A stretch of DNA of 55,143 nucleotides from Chromatiales bacterium (GTDB taxonomy: Bacteria > Pseudomonadota > Gammaproteobacteria > JAGRGH01): positions 1 through 55,143 of the forward strand of contig JAGRGH010000010.1 in NCBI GenBank assembly GCA_020445605.1. Reading direction: 5' to 3'. The notes beneath the pieces were generated by a model, which had not been told where the DNA came from, ran no database searches, and saw only the letters and a program-made list of their open reading frames with translations. A program made the position numbers and the translations under genes. Shown here in pieces: positions 3,651-53,615 of this stretch. Numbering within the stretch: the first letter of the stretch is position 1; each line of letters opens with the position of its first letter.

Positions 3651-3801
3651 GGAAACTCTGAACGATTCAGAGTTTCCCGCGGCACAGGGAGGTGCCGCCA
3701 TTTTCAACGGATGTAAGACGTTGAAAATGAGAGAAAACGGGAAATGACACTTTTTCGGGCTCAACGCTCTGGCAATCCGGGACGGACTGGTCAGAGCTTC
3801 C
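3651..3801 (+). repeat. Family-A multi-hairpin element, copy A1
   Basis: A 151-bp element bounded by GGAAACTCTG and CAGAGCTTCC. Its consecutive stem-loops are an AACTCTGAA/TTCAGAGTT end hairpin, a GCGGCAC/GTGCCGC hairpin, an ATTTTCAACG/CGTTGAAAAT hairpin and an end hairpin around GGCAATCC/GGACTGG. It begins 22 bp after the collagen-Hint stop codon. Copies A2, A3 and A4 run in the opposite orientation. Confidence 0.85.
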
Positions 3802-8108: not shown

Positions 8109-8262
8109 GGGAAGCTCTGATCAATCCGTCCCGGATTGCCAGAGCTTTGAGCCCGAAAAAGTGTCATTTTTCGTTTTCTTTCATTTTCAACGTCTTACAT
8201 CGGTTGAAAATGGCGGCACTTCCCTGTGCCGCGGGAAACTCTGAATTGTTCGGAGTTTCTCC
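8109..8262 (-). repeat. Family-A multi-hairpin element, copy A2
   Basis: A full copy opposite to A1, running from GGAAGCTCTG to AGTTTCTCC. Five stem-loops follow in order: CAATCC/GGATTG, GAAAAA/TTTTTC, CATTTTCAAC/GTTGAAAATG, GCGGCAC/GTGCCGC and AACTCTG/CGGAGTT. It begins 22 bp after the ychF stop. Confidence 0.85.
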
Positions 8263-8891: not shown

Positions 8892-8965
8892 GACGCCTGC
8901 CCGCCAGTTGGCGGGTCAGCAGAACGTCCCGCGGTACAGCAGTAAGGCGTCAGCACTTTGATTAG

Positions 8966-9117
8966 GGAAGCTCTGATTAATCCATCCTGGATTAACAGAG
9001 CGACGAAAACGAAAAAGCGCGGTTTTTCGTTTTCTTACCATTTTCAATGGCTGGCGCACATTGAAAATGGTGGCACGTCCCTGTGCCACGGGAAACTCTG
9101 AATTGATCAGAGTTTCC
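8966..9117 (-). repeat. Family-A multi-hairpin element, copy A3
   Basis: A full 152-bp copy in the A2 orientation. Its stems differ from A2 by paired changes: TTAATCC/GGATTAA replaces CAATCC/GGATTG, GTGGCAC/GTGCCAC replaces GCGGCAC/GTGCCGC, and CATTTTCAATG/CATTGAAAATG closes the third hairpin. It lies 56 bp upstream of the RAYT remnant. Confidence 0.85.
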
Positions 9118-9173
9118 TTCGCTTGCCGCAGGTGTTACGACCCCGTTTCTGCTGCGAAGTGGGGGGGGGGTAA

Positions 9174-9320
9174 ATGCCACGAAAACCAAGGTTCCATCTG
9201 CCCGGCGTGCCGGTCCATGTCGTCGGGCGTGGCCACAGTCGCGAGCCGGTGTTCTTCGAGGATTCCGACTACGCGGCCTTCCTTGGCTGGCTGGGTGAGG
9301 CGACCGTGCGCTATGGCTGT
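9174..9320 (+). pseudogene. Truncated REP-associated tyrosine transposase (RAYT) remnant
   Basis: The first 49 codons read like the N-terminus of RAYT/TnpA_REP Y1 transposases: MPRKPRFHLPGVPVHVV, then RGHSREPVFFEDSDYAAF, then GWLGEATVRYGC. Family members continue with an HxH metal-binding motif and a later catalytic Tyr. Here similarity stops at RYGC and the frame runs into the 3' side of the opposing OmpA-family gene, so HUH and Tyr are absent and the protein cannot be active. A run of about ten G residues precedes the start. RAYTs mobilise palindromic REP elements, so its position 56 bp from family-A copy A3 is meaningful. Confidence 0.8.
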
Positions 9321-9363
9321 TTGGCTCAGGCATTGATGTTCTGCCCGCAACCGCCGATAGGTT

Positions 9364-10281
9364 TCAGCGCTGCACCAGCACCACCCGACGATTGCTTGCG
9401 CGACCGCCTTCGGACGCATTAGTCGCCACCGGTGCAAGCGGACCGACGCCCCTGCCTTCCAGCCGCGCGCCATCAATCCGGTATTCTGCCATCAGCGCCT
9501 TGACGACTGACTTGGCGCGACCTTCCGACAAACTCATGTTGTGTGCAAGACTGCCCTGCATATCGGTATGCCCGACCACATAGAGTTTCAGGTCGGCACG
9601 CTCGTTCAGGAGCTTTGCGACTTCGTCGAGCGCGGGCTTTGATTCCGGCTTGAGATCGGTCTTGTCCGTGTCAAAAAATATACCTTCCACCACCACATAA
9701 CCCTGCTTGTCGAGGTCTTCAGTTAGCGCCGCCATATTCAGCGTGGCCATGCCGGTGTCCATCTTTTTCATTTCGACGACATGCACGTCGGTGTTGTTGT
9801 CGCCCACGGCGAGAACCAGGTACGCGATTTGATCGCCCTGATCCAGCTTTGCGAATACGTAGCGGCCGGATTGGTTGCCAATCGAGGCAATGGCGAATTG
9901 CTGCCGCAGATGTGCCCCGACGTAGCCATCGACGCATTCCTTGTCGGCCTGATTGCACTGATAGAGAATCTCGACACCCTCCTTCTTCAGGGCTACCTCA
10001 TAATTACGGTAGATTTCCAGCACCGAACGTTCCTTCGGATTCTTGTACAGTAGCTTGGTTACCTTTCCTTCCAATTTCTCGGTATTGTACTGTTTTGCTT
10101 CTTTGTCCCAGCCCTTGAAGACACGGTACTCATCATACTGTTTTACGTCTTTGCTATAGACAGTTGAACCGGCATAGGGCGCAACCAGGGGGTGGTCGGA
10201 TTTGTCGGGTTTGGCAGCCAGAACCGGCTGCGACGCCAAGCACACCAGAATCGACAAAAACTGAAACAACGTCCCGCGCAT
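9364..10281 (-). CDS. OmpA-family outer-membrane/peptidoglycan-binding protein
   Basis: The start at 10281 has a strong GGAGG site and gives a Sec signal peptide (MRGTLFQFLSILVCLASQPV, cleavage after LAA). The mature 280 residues have an N-terminal region (SKDVKQYDEYRVFKGWDKEA onward) resembling DUF4892-like domains found before OmpA domains. The C-terminal OmpA domain runs from IFFDTDKTDLKPES, through VVGHTDMQGSLAHNMSLSEG, to the ASNRRVVLV end, which would bind peptidoglycan. Base composition is visibly lower in GC than its neighbours. The gene is bracketed by family-A copies A3 and A4, and the RAYT remnant abuts its 3' end. All three suggest acquisition. Longer upstream in-frame codons run through repeat A4 and are not a credible start. 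Confidence 0.85.
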   Translation of the reverse strand: MRGTLFQFLSILVCLASQPVLAAKPDKSDHPLVAPYAGSTVYSKDVKQYDEYRVFKGWDKEAKQYNTEKLEGKVTKLLYKNPKERSVLEIYRNYEVALKKEGVEILYQCNQADKECVDGYVGAHLRQQFAIASIGNQSGRYVFAKLDQGDQIAYLVLAVGDNNTDVHVVEMKKMDTGMATLNMAALTEDLDKQGYVVVEGIFFDTDKTDLKPESKPALDEVAKLLNERADLKLYVVGHTDMQGSLAHNMSLSEGRAKSVVKALMAEYRIDGARLEGRGVGPLAPVATNASEGGRASNRRVVLVQR

Positions 10282-10422
10282 ACAGTCCTCCGCAACCAGA
10301 ATTGAACCATCAACAGCGACTTTCTCAGCACATGATATACCTGCAAAAAAAATGTCATCCAGAAAAACCGCCTCAAAGAACAGCTTCCCGTAATATAGAT
10401 CGCGATTGAATTGAGCCGTTAG

Positions 10423-10572
10423 GGAAACTCTGGTCAATCCATCCCGGATTGCCAGAGCTTTGAGCCCGAAAAAGTGCGATTTTTCGTTTTCTCTCATTTT
10501 CAACGTCTTACATCCGTTGAAAATGGCGGCACATCCATGTGCCGCGGGAAACTCTGACAATTCAGAGTTTCC
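10423..10572 (-). repeat. Family-A multi-hairpin element, copy A4
   Basis: A full 150-bp copy in the same orientation as A2 and A3, from GGAAACTCTGG to AGAGTTTCC. It lies in the divergent interval between the OmpA-family gene and the MMPL transporter, one of the few copies not behind a stop codon. Confidence 0.85.
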
Positions 10573-10722
10573 TTCGAGGGAAGACGCTGCCACGCAAGCC
10601 ACGCTCTGAGTTTCCCGGTGTCCCCCGGCACCTTGTGCTGCGGGGTAACCTGCTGCCCGGCACGGGTTTCATCACCTGGGGCGCTCCAATCGTTGGGGGT
10701 TCCGTTGCAATAGAATAGCCCG

Positions 10723-13461
10723 ATGGAATCCCTGCTGCTGCGGTTTGCCCGGCATCCCTGGTGGACGCTGTTCGCGCTGTTCGCCCTGTGCGTGCTGGCC
10801 GCGACCAGGCTCGGCGACGTCCGGGTATACATCGGCGCGGACGAGTTGCTGGTCCGTGGCGACCCGCAGCGCAGCTACTACGAGGAGATTTCCAGACGGT
10901 TTGGCGAGGAGCGCGTAGCACTTCTGTACCTCGCTGACGACGCGGCGCTCGACCCAGAACGCCTCAAGGTTCTGCAAAGGGCCATCAGCGCGATTGAGGC
11001 GCTGCCCTTCGTCGAGCGGGTCGACAGCCTGTTTTCGATTCCCGAGGTGCGCACCGTCGACGGCTTCATCACCAAGGAGCCGTATCTCAAGGAACTGCCG
11101 AAAACGCAGGCCGCCGCGGATGAGATTCACACCAAGGCGCTGAACAACGCGTTTCTGCGCGACGTGCTGCTGTCGGTGGACAGACGGGTGATCGCCGCTG
11201 CGATCGTGCTGCGCGACGACGGCAGCGCGGACGAGGACATCGCGCTCACGCTCGACGAGCGTATAGCACCCTTGCGCGAGATCTATGCGCAGGCGTTCGT
11301 CATCGGCTATCCCGAGGTGCGTCTGGAGATCGCCGAACGCATCCGTGCGGAGCAGGGTCGTCTGCTGCCCTGGGCCGTCGGTGCCCTGTTGCTGACGCTG
11401 TTCATCTCGCTCCGTCAGGTCGTCGACGTGCTCGTGCCACTGATGACCTCGGCGGTGAGCATTCTGTGGACCCTCGGACTCATGGGCGCGGCGGGGATCC
11501 CGCTGAACATCGTCACCTCCATGGTGCCGATCCTGCTGATCATCATCGGCTCGACCGAAGACGTGCATCTGCTCGCTGAGTTTCGCTTCGCGCAGCGACG
11601 TGGCCGCAATGTCGACGCGGCGATCGGCGACATGTCGAGACGCATGGGCCGCACTGTTTTGCTGACTTTCGTCACGACCTTCATGGGCTTTCTGTCCGTG
11701 GCGTTCGGCGGCGTGGAGCTGTTGCAGCAGTTCGGGCTGGTGGCCGCGGCCGGACTGCTGTTCAACTTCATTGCGACGATCATGCTGATACCCGCGATCC
11801 TGAAGCTGATCGGCCGCTGGCGCCTTGATGGCCGTTCACCGTTTCTGGCCCGGCACGAGTTCGGCATCGCGCGGACGTATTGCCGGCATCTGCGCATGGG
11901 GCGCCATGTCGTCGTCGCGCTGATGATCGGTCTCACGGTGGCCGCGGCCATCGGTGTGCCGCGAATCTCCATCAACGGCAATCCGGTCGAGACCCTGCCG
12001 CCGGATTCACAGTCGCGCGAACAGTTTCGCCTGGTCAGCGAAAACCTCGCCGGCATGGAGACGGTTTCCATTGTCGTCGATGCGCGAATCCAGGATACTT
12101 TTCTGAAGGCGCGTTATGTCGACGAACTGAAGAAACTTCAGACGTTTGTCGAAGGCACAGGCCGCAGCCGCTCCACGACCTCGTTCGCGGACTATCTTGC
12201 GCTGCTGAACGCGGCGTTTCAGGAATTCGAAACGCCCCGCATTCCGCAGACCGACGCGGAGGTCAATGAGCTGATGCTGTTCCTCGACTACTCGCATGTG
12301 CGGGGCTATGTGTCGGAGGACTACAGCAGCGCGCGGGTGTTGATCAGACACCGTCTTACCGACGAGCGCGAATTGCGGGCGTTCCTGCGCGATATCGCGG
12401 CCTATCTGGGGACGGAACTCGACCGCGGCCTCGACTGGCATATCACCGGCCCGTCCGTGCTGTCGCTGTCGTCCACGCATGCGATGATTCGCGGGCAGTT
12501 GCAGTCCGTCGGTGTGCTGCTGGCAGCCATCGTGTTCATGATGGCGCTGATGTTCGCCGACATCCGCGTGGGCCTGATCGCGGCGCTGCCGAACCTGTTT
12601 CCCGTCATCGTGCTGTTTGGCGCGATGGGCTGGTTCGACATTCCGCTGAATATCGGCACGACGATGGCCGCGGCGATCACGATCGGCATTGCGGTCGACG
12701 GGACCATGCACCTGATGCTGCGCTACAACGAACGCCTGAAAACCCAGGGCGATTTCGCGCGCGCGATCCACACGACGATCCAGAGCGAGGCGCTGCCGAT
12801 GATTGCGACCTCGGCCGCGCTTGTCGCCGGGTTTCTCGTGTTCACGCAGTCCGAGTTTCTGCCGGTGCGCCAGTTCGGCATCCTCAGTGCGCTGGCGATC
12901 AGTGTCGCGCTGGTCGCCAACTTCGTGGTGCTGCCGCTGGCAATTGCGTCGTTGCGCGTTGTCACCCTGTGGGATCTGCTTTCGGTTCCGGAGATCAAGG
13001 AGGTCATTCGCAGCAGCGTGGCGTTCAAAGGGCTCAGCGACTGGCAGATCCGCCGATTCATCGCATCCGGCGCGATCCGGCGCCAGCGCGCGGGCGATAT
13101 GGTGTATGCGGTGGGTGACTCCAGCGACGCGATGTATCTCGTGCTCGAGGGCGCCTTCGAGTCGCGCCTGCCGGTCGGCGAGGGTGAGCAGGTGGTGGCC
13201 CGTTTCGGGCCCGGCGATCTGCTGGGCGAGATCGCGCTGCTCGCGAACGAACCGCGTCACGCGCGCGCCGTGGCCGTGGCGGACAGCCGGCTTCTGGCGC
13301 TGACGCGCGATAGCATAGAGAACAACCGACGCTGGCACCCTTATTTCACCTCGCAGTTGTTCGTAAATCTTGCGGAAACGGCGAGCCGACGGCTGTTGCG
13401 GCTGATCGATCGTGAATACACCGGCCCTGCAAAGGCGCAGGAGAATCCTGATGAAAATTGA
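10723..13461 (+). CDS. MMPL/RND-family transporter fused to a cyclic-nucleotide-binding domain
   Basis: A 912-residue inner-membrane protein with the two-fold RND/MMPL layout. There is one N-terminal helix (WWTLFALFALCVLAATRLG), a periplasmic domain to about residue 205, a five- or six-helix block, a second lone helix near 395 (VVVALMIGLTVAAAIGVP), a second periplasmic domain and a second helix block. The block signatures are LNIVTSMVPILLIIIGSTED and LNIGTTMAAAITIGIAVDG, the latter carrying the acidic residue expected for proton coupling. From about residue 770 a cNMP-binding domain follows, with the phosphate-cassette-like segment LLGEIALLANEPRHARAV. Fusion of a CAP_ED module to an MMPL pump suggests nucleotide-gated or nucleotide-tethered transport. 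The substrate is unknown; hopanoid or lipid export is typical of relatives. It overlaps the next gene by 11 bp, indicating translational coupling. Confidence 0.88.
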   Translation: MESLLLRFARHPWWTLFALFALCVLAATRLGDVRVYIGADELLVRGDPQRSYYEEISRRFGEERVALLYLADDAALDPERLKVLQRAISAIEALPFVERVDSLFSIPEVRTVDGFITKEPYLKELPKTQAAADEIHTKALNNAFLRDVLLSVDRRVIAAAIVLRDDGSADEDIALTLDERIAPLREIYAQAFVIGYPEVRLEIAERIRAEQGRLLPWAVGALLLTLFISLRQVVDVLVPLMTSAVSILWTLGLMGAAGIPLNIVTSMVPILLIIIGSTEDVHLLAEFRFAQRRGRNVDAAIGDMSRRMGRTVLLTFVTTFMGFLSVAFGGVELLQQFGLVAAAGLLFNFIATIMLIPAILKLIGRWRLDGRSPFLARHEFGIARTYCRHLRMGRHVVVALMIGLTVAAAIGVPRISINGNPVETLPPDSQSREQFRLVSENLAGMETVSIVVDARIQDTFLKARYVDELKKLQTFVEGTGRSRSTTSFADYLALLNAAFQEFETPRIPQTDAEVNELMLFLDYSHVRGYVSEDYSSARVLIRHRLTDERELRAFLRDIAAYLGTELDRGLDWHITGPSVLSLSSTHAMIRGQLQSVGVLLAAIVFMMALMFADIRVGLIAALPNLFPVIVLFGAMGWFDIPLNIGTTMAAAITIGIAVDGTMHLMLRYNERLKTQGDFARAIHTTIQSEALPMIATSAALVAGFLVFTQSEFLPVRQFGILSALAISVALVANFVVLPLAIASLRVVTLWDLLSVPEIKEVIRSSVAFKGLSDWQIRRFIASGAIRRQRAGDMVYAVGDSSDAMYLVLEGAFESRLPVGEGEQVVARFGPGDLLGEIALLANEPRHARAVAVADSRLLALTRDSIENNRRWHPYFTSQLFVNLAETASRRLLRLIDREYTGPAKAQENPDEN

Positions 13462-14245
13462 TGCCTGGTCATCTGGTGCGGCCCTTGGCGCCATGTTGCT
13501 GGCGGCTGGCCCGCTGCATGCGAACCCCCAGGGGGCCGAGCCGCTCGGCGCGAGCCCGGCACAGTTCGCCGAACCCTACAGTGGACGGCGCGTCGCCGAA
13601 TACGAGGTGACGCTGCCTGTTTCCAGTGAAGAGAGACATCTGTATCGCGTACCCGCGGACTGCACTGCCGCGCGCGCGGCACTGGCTGGTGGCGCGTGGC
13701 AATACGGAACGCAGGTCGAACGGCGCGTGTGGACGAAAGTCGACAACGACTGCGTGTACGCATCGATCATCGGACAGGCGGCGCGCCATGCCGACAACGA
13801 TTTCGTGACCGCCTACGACTTCATGAACTCGCCGCTTGCGATGCTGCCGGTCGTGCAGCCCTGCGCGGCAGCGCTGGGCGCCGACTGTGTTCAGCTGAGC
13901 CCCGTGTTCGGATTTCTGGGCGTGCGCAAGAGCGTCGGCGAGACCGGCCCCTGTGAAATACGCAATGGCGTGTTTCGCGGCTACATTGCGCGGCGCGGCG
14001 ATGAACTGGTGTGTTCGCGCGATCCGGCTGCCCCGGGCTTCCGGGTGATGTCGGCCTACTGCGCAGATGTGGATGGCGACAAGCACAACGATGTTCTGCT
14101 AAGAATTCTGCCGATCGGACCGGTAGCCGGCGCGCGACCGGTCATCGTGCCGCTGAGGCGTCCGGCCCATGGCGCGCCATTCGCGCTGCTGGAGGGCGTC
14201 AGCCTGCCGCAGCCGCTTGCGCTGCCGGGCCTTGGATTGCCTTAA
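13451..14245 (+). CDS. Exported protein of unknown function, coupled to MMPL transporter
   Basis: The ATG at 13451 lies inside the end of the MMPL gene and starts a signal peptide (MKIDAWSSGAALGAMLLAAG, cleaved near LHANP). The 264-residue product has six or more Cys spread through the mature part, which fits periplasmic disulfides. I recognise no family. The 11-bp overlap implies a shared mRNA with the transporter, so it may be a periplasmic partner. Its stop codon TAA (14243-14245) is part of the terminal sequence of family-B element B1. Confidence 0.75.
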   Translation: MKIDAWSSGAALGAMLLAAGPLHANPQGAEPLGASPAQFAEPYSGRRVAEYEVTLPVSSEERHLYRVPADCTAARAALAGGAWQYGTQVERRVWTKVDNDCVYASIIGQAARHADNDFVTAYDFMNSPLAMLPVVQPCAAALGADCVQLSPVFGFLGVRKSVGETGPCEIRNGVFRGYIARRGDELVCSRDPAAPGFRVMSAYCADVDGDKHNDVLLRILPIGPVAGARPVIVPLRRPAHGAPFALLEGVSLPQPLALPGLGLP

Positions 14246-14411
14246 CAGGTTGTTGAAAAAGGCCCATCCATGGCCTTTTCAACGTCGCAACCGAAAAGCG
14301 CGGTTTTCGGTTGCTCACGAAAATCAAACACTTGTGCGTTCGATTTTCGGGCGACACGTCCCTGTCTCGTGCTAACAGGCTGTTCAAAATAGAATTTCAA
14401 CAGCCTGTTAA
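14242..14411 (+). repeat. Family-B multi-hairpin element, copy B1
   Basis: A 170-bp element with termini TTAACAGGTTGTTGAAA and TTTCAACAGCCTGTTAA as inverted repeats. Internal stem-loops are GTTGAAAA..GGCC/GGCC..TTTTCAAC, GCAACCGAAAA/TTTTCGGTTGC, CGAAAATC/GATTTTCG, a short GACAC/GTCTC hairpin with loop GTCCCT, and a final hairpin from TAACAGGCTGTT to AACAGCCTGTTA. Its outer TTAACAGG supplies the stop codon of the preceding gene. Confidence 0.85.
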
Positions 14412-20517: not shown

Positions 20518-20805
20518 GGAAGCCCTGATCGAGCCGTCTGACTTGTCAGGGCAACAGAATCAGGCTGGCAGGGTTTTTCGTCTTCTGTACGGAACCTCTG
20601 ATCAATCCATCCAGGATTGCCTGTGCGGCGAAACCGAAAACGTGCGATTTTTCGCTTTCTTGCATTTTCAACGGCCTGCAGTCACCGAAAATGGCGGCAC
20701 TTTCTTGTGCCGCGGGAAACTCCGCGTTGTTCAGGGTTTTCCTGATCTTCAAACGCTGGCCGCCGTCGAAGATGGTCGTACGATTCTGTGCCCCGGGAAA
20801 CTCTG
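20518..20805 (-). repeat. Tandem cluster of degraded family-A elements (A5)
   Basis: Three adjoining copies in the A2 orientation. The first (20518-20590) has the start hairpin and is internally shortened. The second (20591-20742) is essentially complete, from GGAACCTCTGATCAATCC to GGGTTTTCC. The third (20743-20805) keeps only the TCTTCAAACG..CGAAGA, CTGTGCCC and GGAAACTCTGA parts. The first base directly follows the SnoaL-like stop codon. Confidence 0.75.
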
Positions 20806-21137
20806 ACCCGACCGCAGTGGTCCGGGCAGGGGCGTCATTAGCCGGTGCGTCGTGTCCGGTCAATTGCCGTCCGAGTGAAGGATGAATCGGGCCAGGAACC
20901 TCCCGTTGGCCGCAATTCATCGACGATATGCTATGACAAATATCTAAATTATCGACTTTGTTCTGGCGCCTCGGTTCGTAAACTGCTCGCCATGAAGATT
21001 TCCATTCAAGTCCATGGTCCGGCCGCCTGAGCGTCGTGACGCCCGCTGCGCGGACGGCGCGATCACATTTTCCCGACATGGCGTAGCGCTGCGCGGATCA
21101 GTCGGCGTCGGGAGATCGACGCGCACGGCGGGCACGC
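20806..21137 (+). promoter_or_regulatory. Upstream region of the DAB operon
   Basis: 332 bp without a convincing gene. It contains a distinctly AT-rich island at 20923-20961 (ATATGCTATGACAAATATC followed by TAAATTATCGAC). This includes an ATAT-N10-ATAT near-palindrome of the kind bound by LysR-type regulators. A short frame at 20992-21030 (12 codons) is too small to judge. It is the likely promoter/operator region for dabB, with CbbR a candidate regulator. Confidence 0.45.
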
Positions 21138-40474: not shown

Positions 40475-40641
40475 GGAAGACTGTCGAAATTTCCCTTTTA
40501 GCAGCCCGATATCGCGAGACGGGGTCGTCTCGCCCGAAAATCGAACACGCAAGTGTTCGATTCTATTGAGCAACCGAAAACCGCGCTTTTCGGTTGCGAG
40601 GTTGAAAAGGCCATGACCGGGCCGTTTTCAACAACCTGTTA
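40475..40641 (-). repeat. Family-B multi-hairpin element, copy B2
   Basis: A 167-bp copy opposite to B1, with good conservation from CGAGACGGGGTCGTCTCGCC to its TCAACAACCTGTTA end. One end (40475-40510) is degenerate. Stems covary with B1, for example in the AATCGAACAC..GTGTTCGATT hairpin. Its terminal TTA is the stop codon (TAA on the minus strand) of the neighbouring gene. Confidence 0.85.
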
Positions 40642-41358: not shown

Positions 41359-41463
41359 ATTGTTTAGATTCCCCCGCAAGAACTGCCATTCTGTAACAGA
41401 ATGCACGTGGCTGGGAAGCCCTGGCGCGCACGGCATTCGGCGGGCCCGGCTGCGGCATTCCGC

Positions 41464-41567
41464 TACTATCGACCGCTGCAAGCCGTTGAAATTGAGATAA
41501 AACGAAAAATCACACTGCATGGGTTTCGGGGCTCCGGCAGTCTGGGACGGATTGACGAGAGCTTTCC
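41464..41567 (+). repeat. Degenerate partial family-A element (A7)
   Basis: Aligns with the right two thirds of A1: GCCGTTGAAATTGAGA for the third hairpin arm, AACGAAAAATCACAC and GGGTTTCGGGGCTC for the spacer, then GGCAGTCTGGGACGGATTGA and GAGAGCTTTCC for the end hairpin. The left end is lost. It lies just upstream of the nuclease gene. Confidence 0.6.
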
Positions 41568-53532: not shown

Positions 53533-53615
53533 GAAGCCCTGTAAGGATTCAGAGGGTCCTGCGGCAGACGTGAAGTGCCGCTCTGGCAATCCGTGATGGA
53601 TTGATCAGGGTTTCC
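53533..53615 (+). repeat. Internally deleted family-A element (A6)
   Basis: An 83-bp copy in A1 orientation. The left end (GAAGCCCTGTAAGGATTCAG) and the right hairpin (CTCTGGCAATCCG..GGATTGATCAGGGTTTCC) are kept, and the middle hairpins are missing. It begins 12 bp after the DUF302 stop. Confidence 0.7.

Follow-up and report, generated by a model that had tools for sequence, protein, structure and literature searches.

Five-hairpin mobile elements of a Chromatiales bacterium form a superfamily with IS5-type duplications and a putative CsrA/RsmA-binding RNA on the minus strand

Two families of short repeats, A (~151 bp) and B (162 bp), lie in the 55,143-nt stretch of Chromatiales DNA analyzed here over its whole length (hereafter the window). 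An earlier, sequence-only reading had proposed that they are branches of one ancient structured element whose ends diverged, perhaps with different mobilizing enzymes or target sites. The locus raises the questions of whether the two families are related, what moves them, and why an interior built of hairpins would be kept. Each family has at least 40 near-full copies in its own 3.36 Mb draft genome (63 contigs; the best 40 candidates were scored per search). Copies were retrieved with their flanks, and 46 A and 47 B copies were aligned, of which 39 A and 40 B rows served for the covariance models (and the 39 A rows for loop letter counts), truncated, disrupted and degenerate copies being excluded. 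The A model lacks hairpin 3, which was dropped by the automatic consensus.

Folding of the two consensus sequences bears out the proposed similar order of about five stem-loops, as A and B each form five hairpins in the same order and with the same loop motifs. The copies named in the proposal are A3 (8966..9117, plus strand, 173.5 bits with the A model), flanked by TTAG (8962-8965) and TTCG (9118-9121), i.e., a target site duplication (TSD) with 3 of 4 letters kept, and B1 (14246..14407, plus strand, 185.9 bits with the B model), flanked by TTAA on both sides (14242-14245 and 14408-14411). The hairpin 4 core that had been noticed in both is real: the 10-mer ACGTCCCTGT is common to A3 (9075-9084) and B1 (14356-14365, one base left of the 14357-14366 first given) and corresponds to hairpin 4 in both, with the pairs C9076-G9083 and C14357-G14364 each placed around GTCCCT (loops at 9077..9082 and 14358..14363). 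A third site of this 10-mer lies at 73-82 on the minus strand, for a chance expectation of 0.10 over the whole window. The core is shared by both elements, but GTCCCT is just one variant within A, where the loop reads C-N-TCC-N-T-G over 39 copies with both N free (C 39; G 18, T 11, A 6, C 4; T 38; C 37; C 39; C 18, A 16, G 3, T 2; T 37; G 39), and the six non-N letters are kept in 37-39 of the 39 copies. The sharing also exceeds what had been proposed, with NTCC(N)T in hairpin 1 and RYGYGR in hairpin 2, in addition to NTCCNT in hairpin 4, common to both families, and CTT(G/A) in hairpin 3 common too, if loosely. Hairpin 1 presents ATCCT in A3 (8984..8988) and CATCCAT in B1 (14265..14271), and hairpin 2 of A3 presents GCGCGG (9017..9022, without strand assignment). 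Within such RYGYGR loops, the first Y and last R seem by eye to covary (C-G, T-A), like a closed triloop.

At the outer termini the families do differ, with GGAA in A and CAGG in B. Family A starts with GGAARCTCTG, a near-inverse of which forms its other end (in A3, hairpin 5 at 9091..9117, plus strand, is a palindrome that constitutes the right terminal inverted repeat), and family B starts with CAGGTTGTTG and ends with CAACAGCCTG. The string previously taken as the B terminus, TTAACAGG, is however not one, as it consists of the TSD TTAA plus CAGG.

Single-sequence nhmmer searches at E 0.001 find no B with A and no A with B, and a sequence profile of A matches several B copies in register (E 0.0008 and up). 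Covariance models cross-detect throughout: the B model, with default filters, found 22 of 36 near-full A copies over positions 1-162 (18.8-57.7 bits) and, when rerun with filters off because 14 of the 36 had been missed, found these 14 as well (14.7-48.9 bits), while the A model found all 38 of the B copies given to it (14.7-39.2 bits, one only partially). Such a likeness could in principle come from chance or from convergence of GC-rich hairpins, and in a wrong-strand control, where hairpins persist but letters do not, the elements indeed score as much as 29.9 bits (B model) and 26.3 bits (A model), so that the weaker cross-matches, which fall in that range, could rest on hairpins alone. The stronger matches of the B model to A hold sequence evidence beyond hairpins, which is not clearly the case for many matches of the A model to B. 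Against the chance reading, cross-matches extend to 57.7 bits where, with filters off, the top B-model match in the window outside any element scores 13.7 bits, and the same loop motifs recur in order, with intermediates in many genomes; we regard it as the least probable of the alternatives, and reject it on the cross-detection.

Other copies in the window (A-model scores for A, B-model score for B) include family A elements at 3651..3801 (minus strand, 168.5 bits, TSD CTAT on both sides), 8110..8260 (plus, 178.4 bits), 10423..10572 (plus, 175.2 bits) and, in diverged form, 20591..20741 (plus, 150.6 bits), the last adjoined by an A-like fragment at 20740-20811, and a family B element at 40477..40638 (minus, 165 bits). 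A degenerate A copy (41414..41566, minus, 65.5 bits) and an A left-end remnant (53563..53615, minus, 25.5 bits) gave no match with the B model. Elsewhere in the window, 9-base repeats beginning with GG (2375-2650) may have the appearance of collagen-like Gly-X-Y coding, and an array of the 7-base unit TGGCGGC occupies the contig end (55027-55138).

Full-length relatives were detected with the B model in 14 of 94 relative genomes (E 0.001), 38 of 369 genomes of the class and 39 of 398 genomes of the phylum (both E 1e-6), in surveys that used strict filters, have overlapping genome sets and each count the own genome; 10 further hosts in the class survey were already present in the 94-genome one. 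Among the 39 hosts of the phylum survey, 36 lie outside the window's class, 30 of them in one family. The exact hairpin 3/4 pattern occurs in at least 80 named records, among the listed matches mostly uncultured Gammaproteobacteria (with Sedimenticola, Chromatiales, Candidatus Tenderia, Muproteobacteria and others), a few listed records bearing the labels Nitrospirae or Klebsiella (database labels only). Plasmid searches with two of the relatives' elements (L142 and L136) and a search of viral contigs with one pattern returned no match. In one genome (G018, loci L203 and L204), elements stand in tandem at a spacing of ~116-124 bases, unlike the single insertions elsewhere.

A set of 106 relatives (109 rows minus three wrong-strand shadows of other rows) and three own copies forms 37 clusters at 75% identity. 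Aligned by structure, these clusters keep the shared loops constant and in order while their stems diverge widely but covary, with 94.2% of cells paired and a covariation score of 0.677 (vs. 0.169 after shuffling and no more than 0.105 after sliding; the score profits from the alignment having been fitted to the model). Some intermediates in other genomes have A-like GGAA ends, and some B-like CAGG ends. Overall, A and B are well supported as two families of one superfamily, and the idea of one ancient structured element with diverged ends gains support from the model cross-detection, the common loop order, the covarying stems and these intermediates.

What moves these elements is indicated by their flanks. 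Identical 4-bp flanks were found in 17 of 46 A copies (shuffled mean 3.0, maximum 8) and 15 of 46 B copies (shuffled mean 5.5, maximum 13), the own 4-mers being mostly CTAG, TTAG, CTAA and TTAA, with longer repeats rare. A YTNR repeat with matching ends flanks 39 of 150 relatives (shuffled mean 3.4, maximum 7), and is YTAR in 38 of the 39; this count covers the 150 of 152 rows with both ends and includes the three wrong-strand shadow rows. YTAR is described as the IS5 duplication motif (available part of PMC10359306). The suggestion of different target sites is not supported, as A and B share one target. Among 30 DDE_Tnp_1 loci examined from 13 element-bearing genomes, three are insertion sequences with clear ends and duplications (1158-1294 bp, all in other genomes), and their transposases belong to NCBIfam NF033581 (IS5 family). 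Two have A-like ends (L103, with the duplication TAAG, not strictly YTAR; L105, with TTAG), and the third has B-like ends, CAGGCTGTTGAAAAA ... CAGGTTGTTGA (L123, with CTAG on both sides). The differing terminal repeats are in line with the different mobilizing enzymes that had been proposed for the two families, but both share the YTAR duplication and both end types delimit NF033581 transposases in relatives. Overall, with 4-bp YTAR duplications in own A and B and in relatives, and IS5-like inverted repeats in relatives, as in IS5-type MITEs, mobilization of the superfamily by IS5-type transposases is well supported. The own genome has no PF01609 transposase, only two truncated DUF772 pieces at contig starts, and no matching autonomous insertion sequence was found in its 63 contigs (an unassembled copy being possible in this draft), so that the present mobilizer is missing, of another family, or unassembled.

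Some elements meet or break into one another at a common YTAR site. In L031 (671-954), a B is truncated by an A that has CTAG on either side; in L006 (1470-1510), an A and a palindrome of B-end type meet at TTAG; in L044 (960-1050), a B and the remnant of an A meet at TTAA; and in L005 (1351-1654), two A copies have one CTAG in common.

Mobilization could alternatively be due to RAYT (Y1) transposases of the own genome acting on REP-like repeats, as in TIRtrons (described in the available part of PMC3733652). There are two RAYT matches in that genome, and a broken RAYT start at 9174 stands beside A3. However, the RAYT loci hold no element (L021, L022, L070 and L071 searched with the B model, L070 and L071 with the A and B sequence profiles), and the elements show inverted ends and duplicate a 4-bp YTAR target, whereas HUH transposition is not known to duplicate its target. 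With TSDs present and RAYT loci empty of elements, we reject this very improbable alternative. The broken RAYT itself (9174-9320, adjoining A3) retains ~49 residues (MPRKPRFHLPGVPVHVV...) like the 237-aa RAYT of L021, after which the likeness stops, and a run of ten G lies ahead of its start.

Given IS5-type mobilization, the hairpins might simply help the element as DNA, in an ordinary IS5-derived MITE that uses cruciforms or single-strand hairpins in replication or transposition and whose loop letters bind a DNA-binding factor. The TSDs and IS5-like ends agree with this, as do copies inserted without orientation bias relative to genes (see below). This reading nevertheless predicts equal numbers of G-T and A-C mismatches and equal strand stability, whereas both are skewed to one strand. 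Were the structure to act as RNA, only its working strand should tolerate G.U pairs, and a mismatch asymmetry would mark that strand. Only Watson-Crick pairs were used here to define stems, a rule neutral between the strands; an A-C on the plus strand is a G.U on the minus strand. Single mismatches in relatives were 82 A-C vs. 27 G-T (distinct ones 56 vs. 26, p = 0.0012), those of cluster representatives 23 vs. 9, and those of own B copies 48 vs. 7, about half of them within hairpin 3; the ratio was near even in own A copies (15 vs. 12). When folded as RNA, the minus strand was the more stable one in 28 of 37 clusters (mean -3.9 kcal/mol), 88 of 109 relative rows, 29 of 39 A and 28 of 40 B copies, with flanks at 98:108. 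The mismatch counts for relatives and the 109-row stability count include the three shadow rows, and the cluster counts do not.

Similar skews appear in a later set, for which 37 of 40 stretches came from outside the class and 8 overlapping rows of 51 were dropped: the 43 elements had 25 A-C vs. 10 G-T mismatches (p = 0.017) and a more stable minus strand in 31 cases (p = 0.0003), counts which still include 6 elements resembling earlier ones. These 6 were dropped for clusters only, and the 14 new clusters alone gave 9:5 for mismatches (p = 0.42, not significant) and 10:4 for stability (p = 0.09, marginal). All strand-test p-values treat related elements as independent. As the model derives from the plus strand, any bias from it should favor the opposite result. 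Also against a purely DNA-level role, a B-model search of five IS5-type transposase loci in relatives (L103, L105, L107, L123 and L125) detected no element interior, so these insertion sequences do not need it. Hairpins acting as DNA are thus an unlikely, though the foremost, alternative. The two strand tests, repeated over later elements but not clusters, together with the loop motif described below, support the minus strand as the probable functional RNA.

CsrA is a protein that controls many bacterial genes. The complement of the A hairpin 4 loop (39 copies) reads C-A-N-G-G-A-N-G, with two N free; in A3 it is AGGGAC, an ANGGAN loop closed by C-G, and in B1 likewise AGGGAC (ANGGAN), while hairpin 1 gives AGGAT on the minus strand of A3 (CAGGATG with the closing pair) and ATGGATG on that of B1. 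Known CsrA/RsmA sites are ANGGAN hexaloops with varying N, CsrB repeats are CAGGA(U/A/C)G, and the CsrA SELEX consensus is RUACARGGAUGU with AC pairing with GU (all from the available part of PMC7652899). The minus-strand loops of hairpins 4 and 1 hence look like a CsrA/RsmA-type hairpin site, which is new here.

For motif counts that use the fold only, we took the 18 of 37 clusters with exactly five predicted hairpins. Of these 18, 16 carry CANGGANG on the minus strand of hairpin 4 and 8 on that of hairpin 1, where 15 match the looser CN(N)GGANG. Neither hairpin 2 nor hairpin 3 shows the motif, and a single loose match falls in hairpin 5; the plus strand has no match in any hairpin, in these clusters or in the later set. 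Of 1952 background hairpins, 9 match CANGGANG on the minus strand and 2 on the plus strand; for the loose form these numbers are 36 and 28. In the later set, the 10 of 14 clusters folding into exactly five hairpins have CANGGANG 7 times in hairpin 4 and 7 times in hairpin 1 (8 and 9 for the loose form). Since relatives were found with a loop-scoring model, their loop shares are upper estimates, and since A copies were found by DNA similarity, the pattern within A is free of this bias. The conserved loops of hairpins 2 and 3 fall outside a CsrA-site explanation.

Read on the plus strand, the NTCCNT loops are C-rich and complementary to GGA, and could belong to a functional RNA whose UCC loops pair with Shine-Dalgarno sequences, like C-rich-loop antisense RNAs. 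Yet the free N in TCC-N-T and the fixed T fit a minus-strand ANGGAN and not a Shine-Dalgarno complement, and both G.U pairs and stability favor the minus strand; we consider such an anti-Shine-Dalgarno RNA improbable, and the loop letter pattern, mismatch skew and stability skew led us to reject it.

As in Csr/Rsm decoys, the minus strand thus displays two or more GGA hairpin loops (ANGGAN), hairpin 1 often in the looser form. The distance from first to last motif has a median of 92 nt (25 of 37 representatives with two motifs), which exceeds the limit of 63 nt reported for CsrA bridging (available part of PMC7652899) unless hairpins 2 and 3 bring the motifs together. In the same source, most SELEX-selected CsrA hairpins have four or fewer contiguous pairs, whereas the element stems are long and very stable, which counts against CsrA. 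A CsrA gene was found in 22 of 25 host genomes searched, own included (41 hosts known), and not in three, all assemblies of at least 300 contigs and one of them 75% complete. No Rfam family, Csr/Rsm included, matches any element at gathering score in the window or 13 loci, so a known Rfam family was rejected. One weak match, to the CsrA-binding sRNA RsmV (E 0.03, below gathering score), was seen at 1590-1850 of locus L002, minus strand, partly inside an A element. Our searches of open-licence PMC papers turned up neither CsrA sites described in MITEs or insertion sequences nor elements such as these. Predicted CsrA/RsmA targets in nonpathogens are enriched for transposase activity according to the available part of PMC12889724, which may bear on a link between CsrA and transposition.

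The genomic context was assessed for 82 own copies with codon-based gene predictions, and 72 of them are overlapped by no predicted gene. The 42 A copies lie between convergent (19), co-directional (18) or divergent (2) genes, and the 40 B copies likewise (9, 22 and 4), 8 copies over both families being left without assignment. Insertion shows no orientation bias, with 21 co-directional copies in which the plus strand is read and 19 in which the minus strand is, which counts against a function tied to host mRNAs and leaves an own promoter or selection on few source copies. A predicted stop codon is abutted by 25 of 82 own copies, vs. 7 of 40 usable YTAR sites in the window, an excess that is suggestive only. 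Because a YTAR target can overlap a TAA or TAG stop, copies end up directly next to gene ends, where the duplication may preserve the stop, as for B1, whose left TSD (14242-14245) contains the stop codon of ORF 13412-14245.

The explanation we favor, with a probability of about 0.6, is an IS5-mobilized MITE superfamily whose minus strand encodes a predicted CsrA-binding RNA, which would serve as a dispersed decoy or 3'-UTR module. The terminal repeats of A and B would be the ends recognized by an IS5-type transposase acting in trans and duplicating its YTAR target, and the interior would be kept because the transcribed minus strand folds into a five-hairpin RNA, in which hairpins 4 and 1 would present ANGGAN / CAGGAUG loops that bind CsrA/RsmA. 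Each transcribed copy might bind one CsrA dimer, and the family would then act either as a CsrA decoy scattered over the genome or as a 3'-UTR module that recruits CsrA, in both cases spreading by transposition. CsrA is the likely partner on account of the conserved loop that matches the published site. We infer transcription, CsrA binding and any decoy effect. For the superfamily as a putative transposable CsrA/RsmA-binding RNA, i.e., a selfish or domesticated mobile decoy, the odds appear about even.

Several known systems resemble parts of this picture. Like IS5-family MITEs, A and B are short and non-coding, with terminal inverted repeats, a YTAR duplication and ends like those of IS5-type insertion sequences in relatives, but their interior does not evidently derive from a transposase gene; it is a covarying five-hairpin module with fixed loops, and this type of interior is common to families with different ends, across classes. 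The CsrB/CsrC and RsmX/Y/Z decoys also have hairpins with ANGGAN / CAGGA(U/A/C)G loops (available part of PMC7652899), whereas A and B have only two such hairpins, with very long stems, and are mobile, in tens of copies. REP/BIME and the TIR repeats of RAYT/TIRYT (available part of PMC3733652) are similarly intergenic, palindromic and mostly between convergent or co-directional genes, but A and B are longer, with five ordered hairpins and a target duplication, and do not flank the RAYT genes found here. The Coxiella QMITEs, finally, are MITEs with transcripts predicted to fold stably (PMC5896051 and PMC10969869, as far as available), but QMITE2 differs in its 7-9 bp direct repeats and 23-29 bp ends as given there; the word CsrA is absent from the main texts of these two papers.

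Bacterial MITEs are commonly viewed as insertion sequences minus their transposase; here, the interior persists despite wide divergence: its stems covary, and a loop matches the sequence bound by a global regulator. Should the RNA bind CsrA, a genome could gain or lose CsrA decoys and CsrA-controlled transcripts through transposition. It is then tempting to speculate that copies, as they spread through a genome, can alter post-transcriptional regulation in many Gammaproteobacteria and in one or more other classes of the phylum, by a logic which, if this is true, would be comparable to that of SINEs derived from cellular RNAs.
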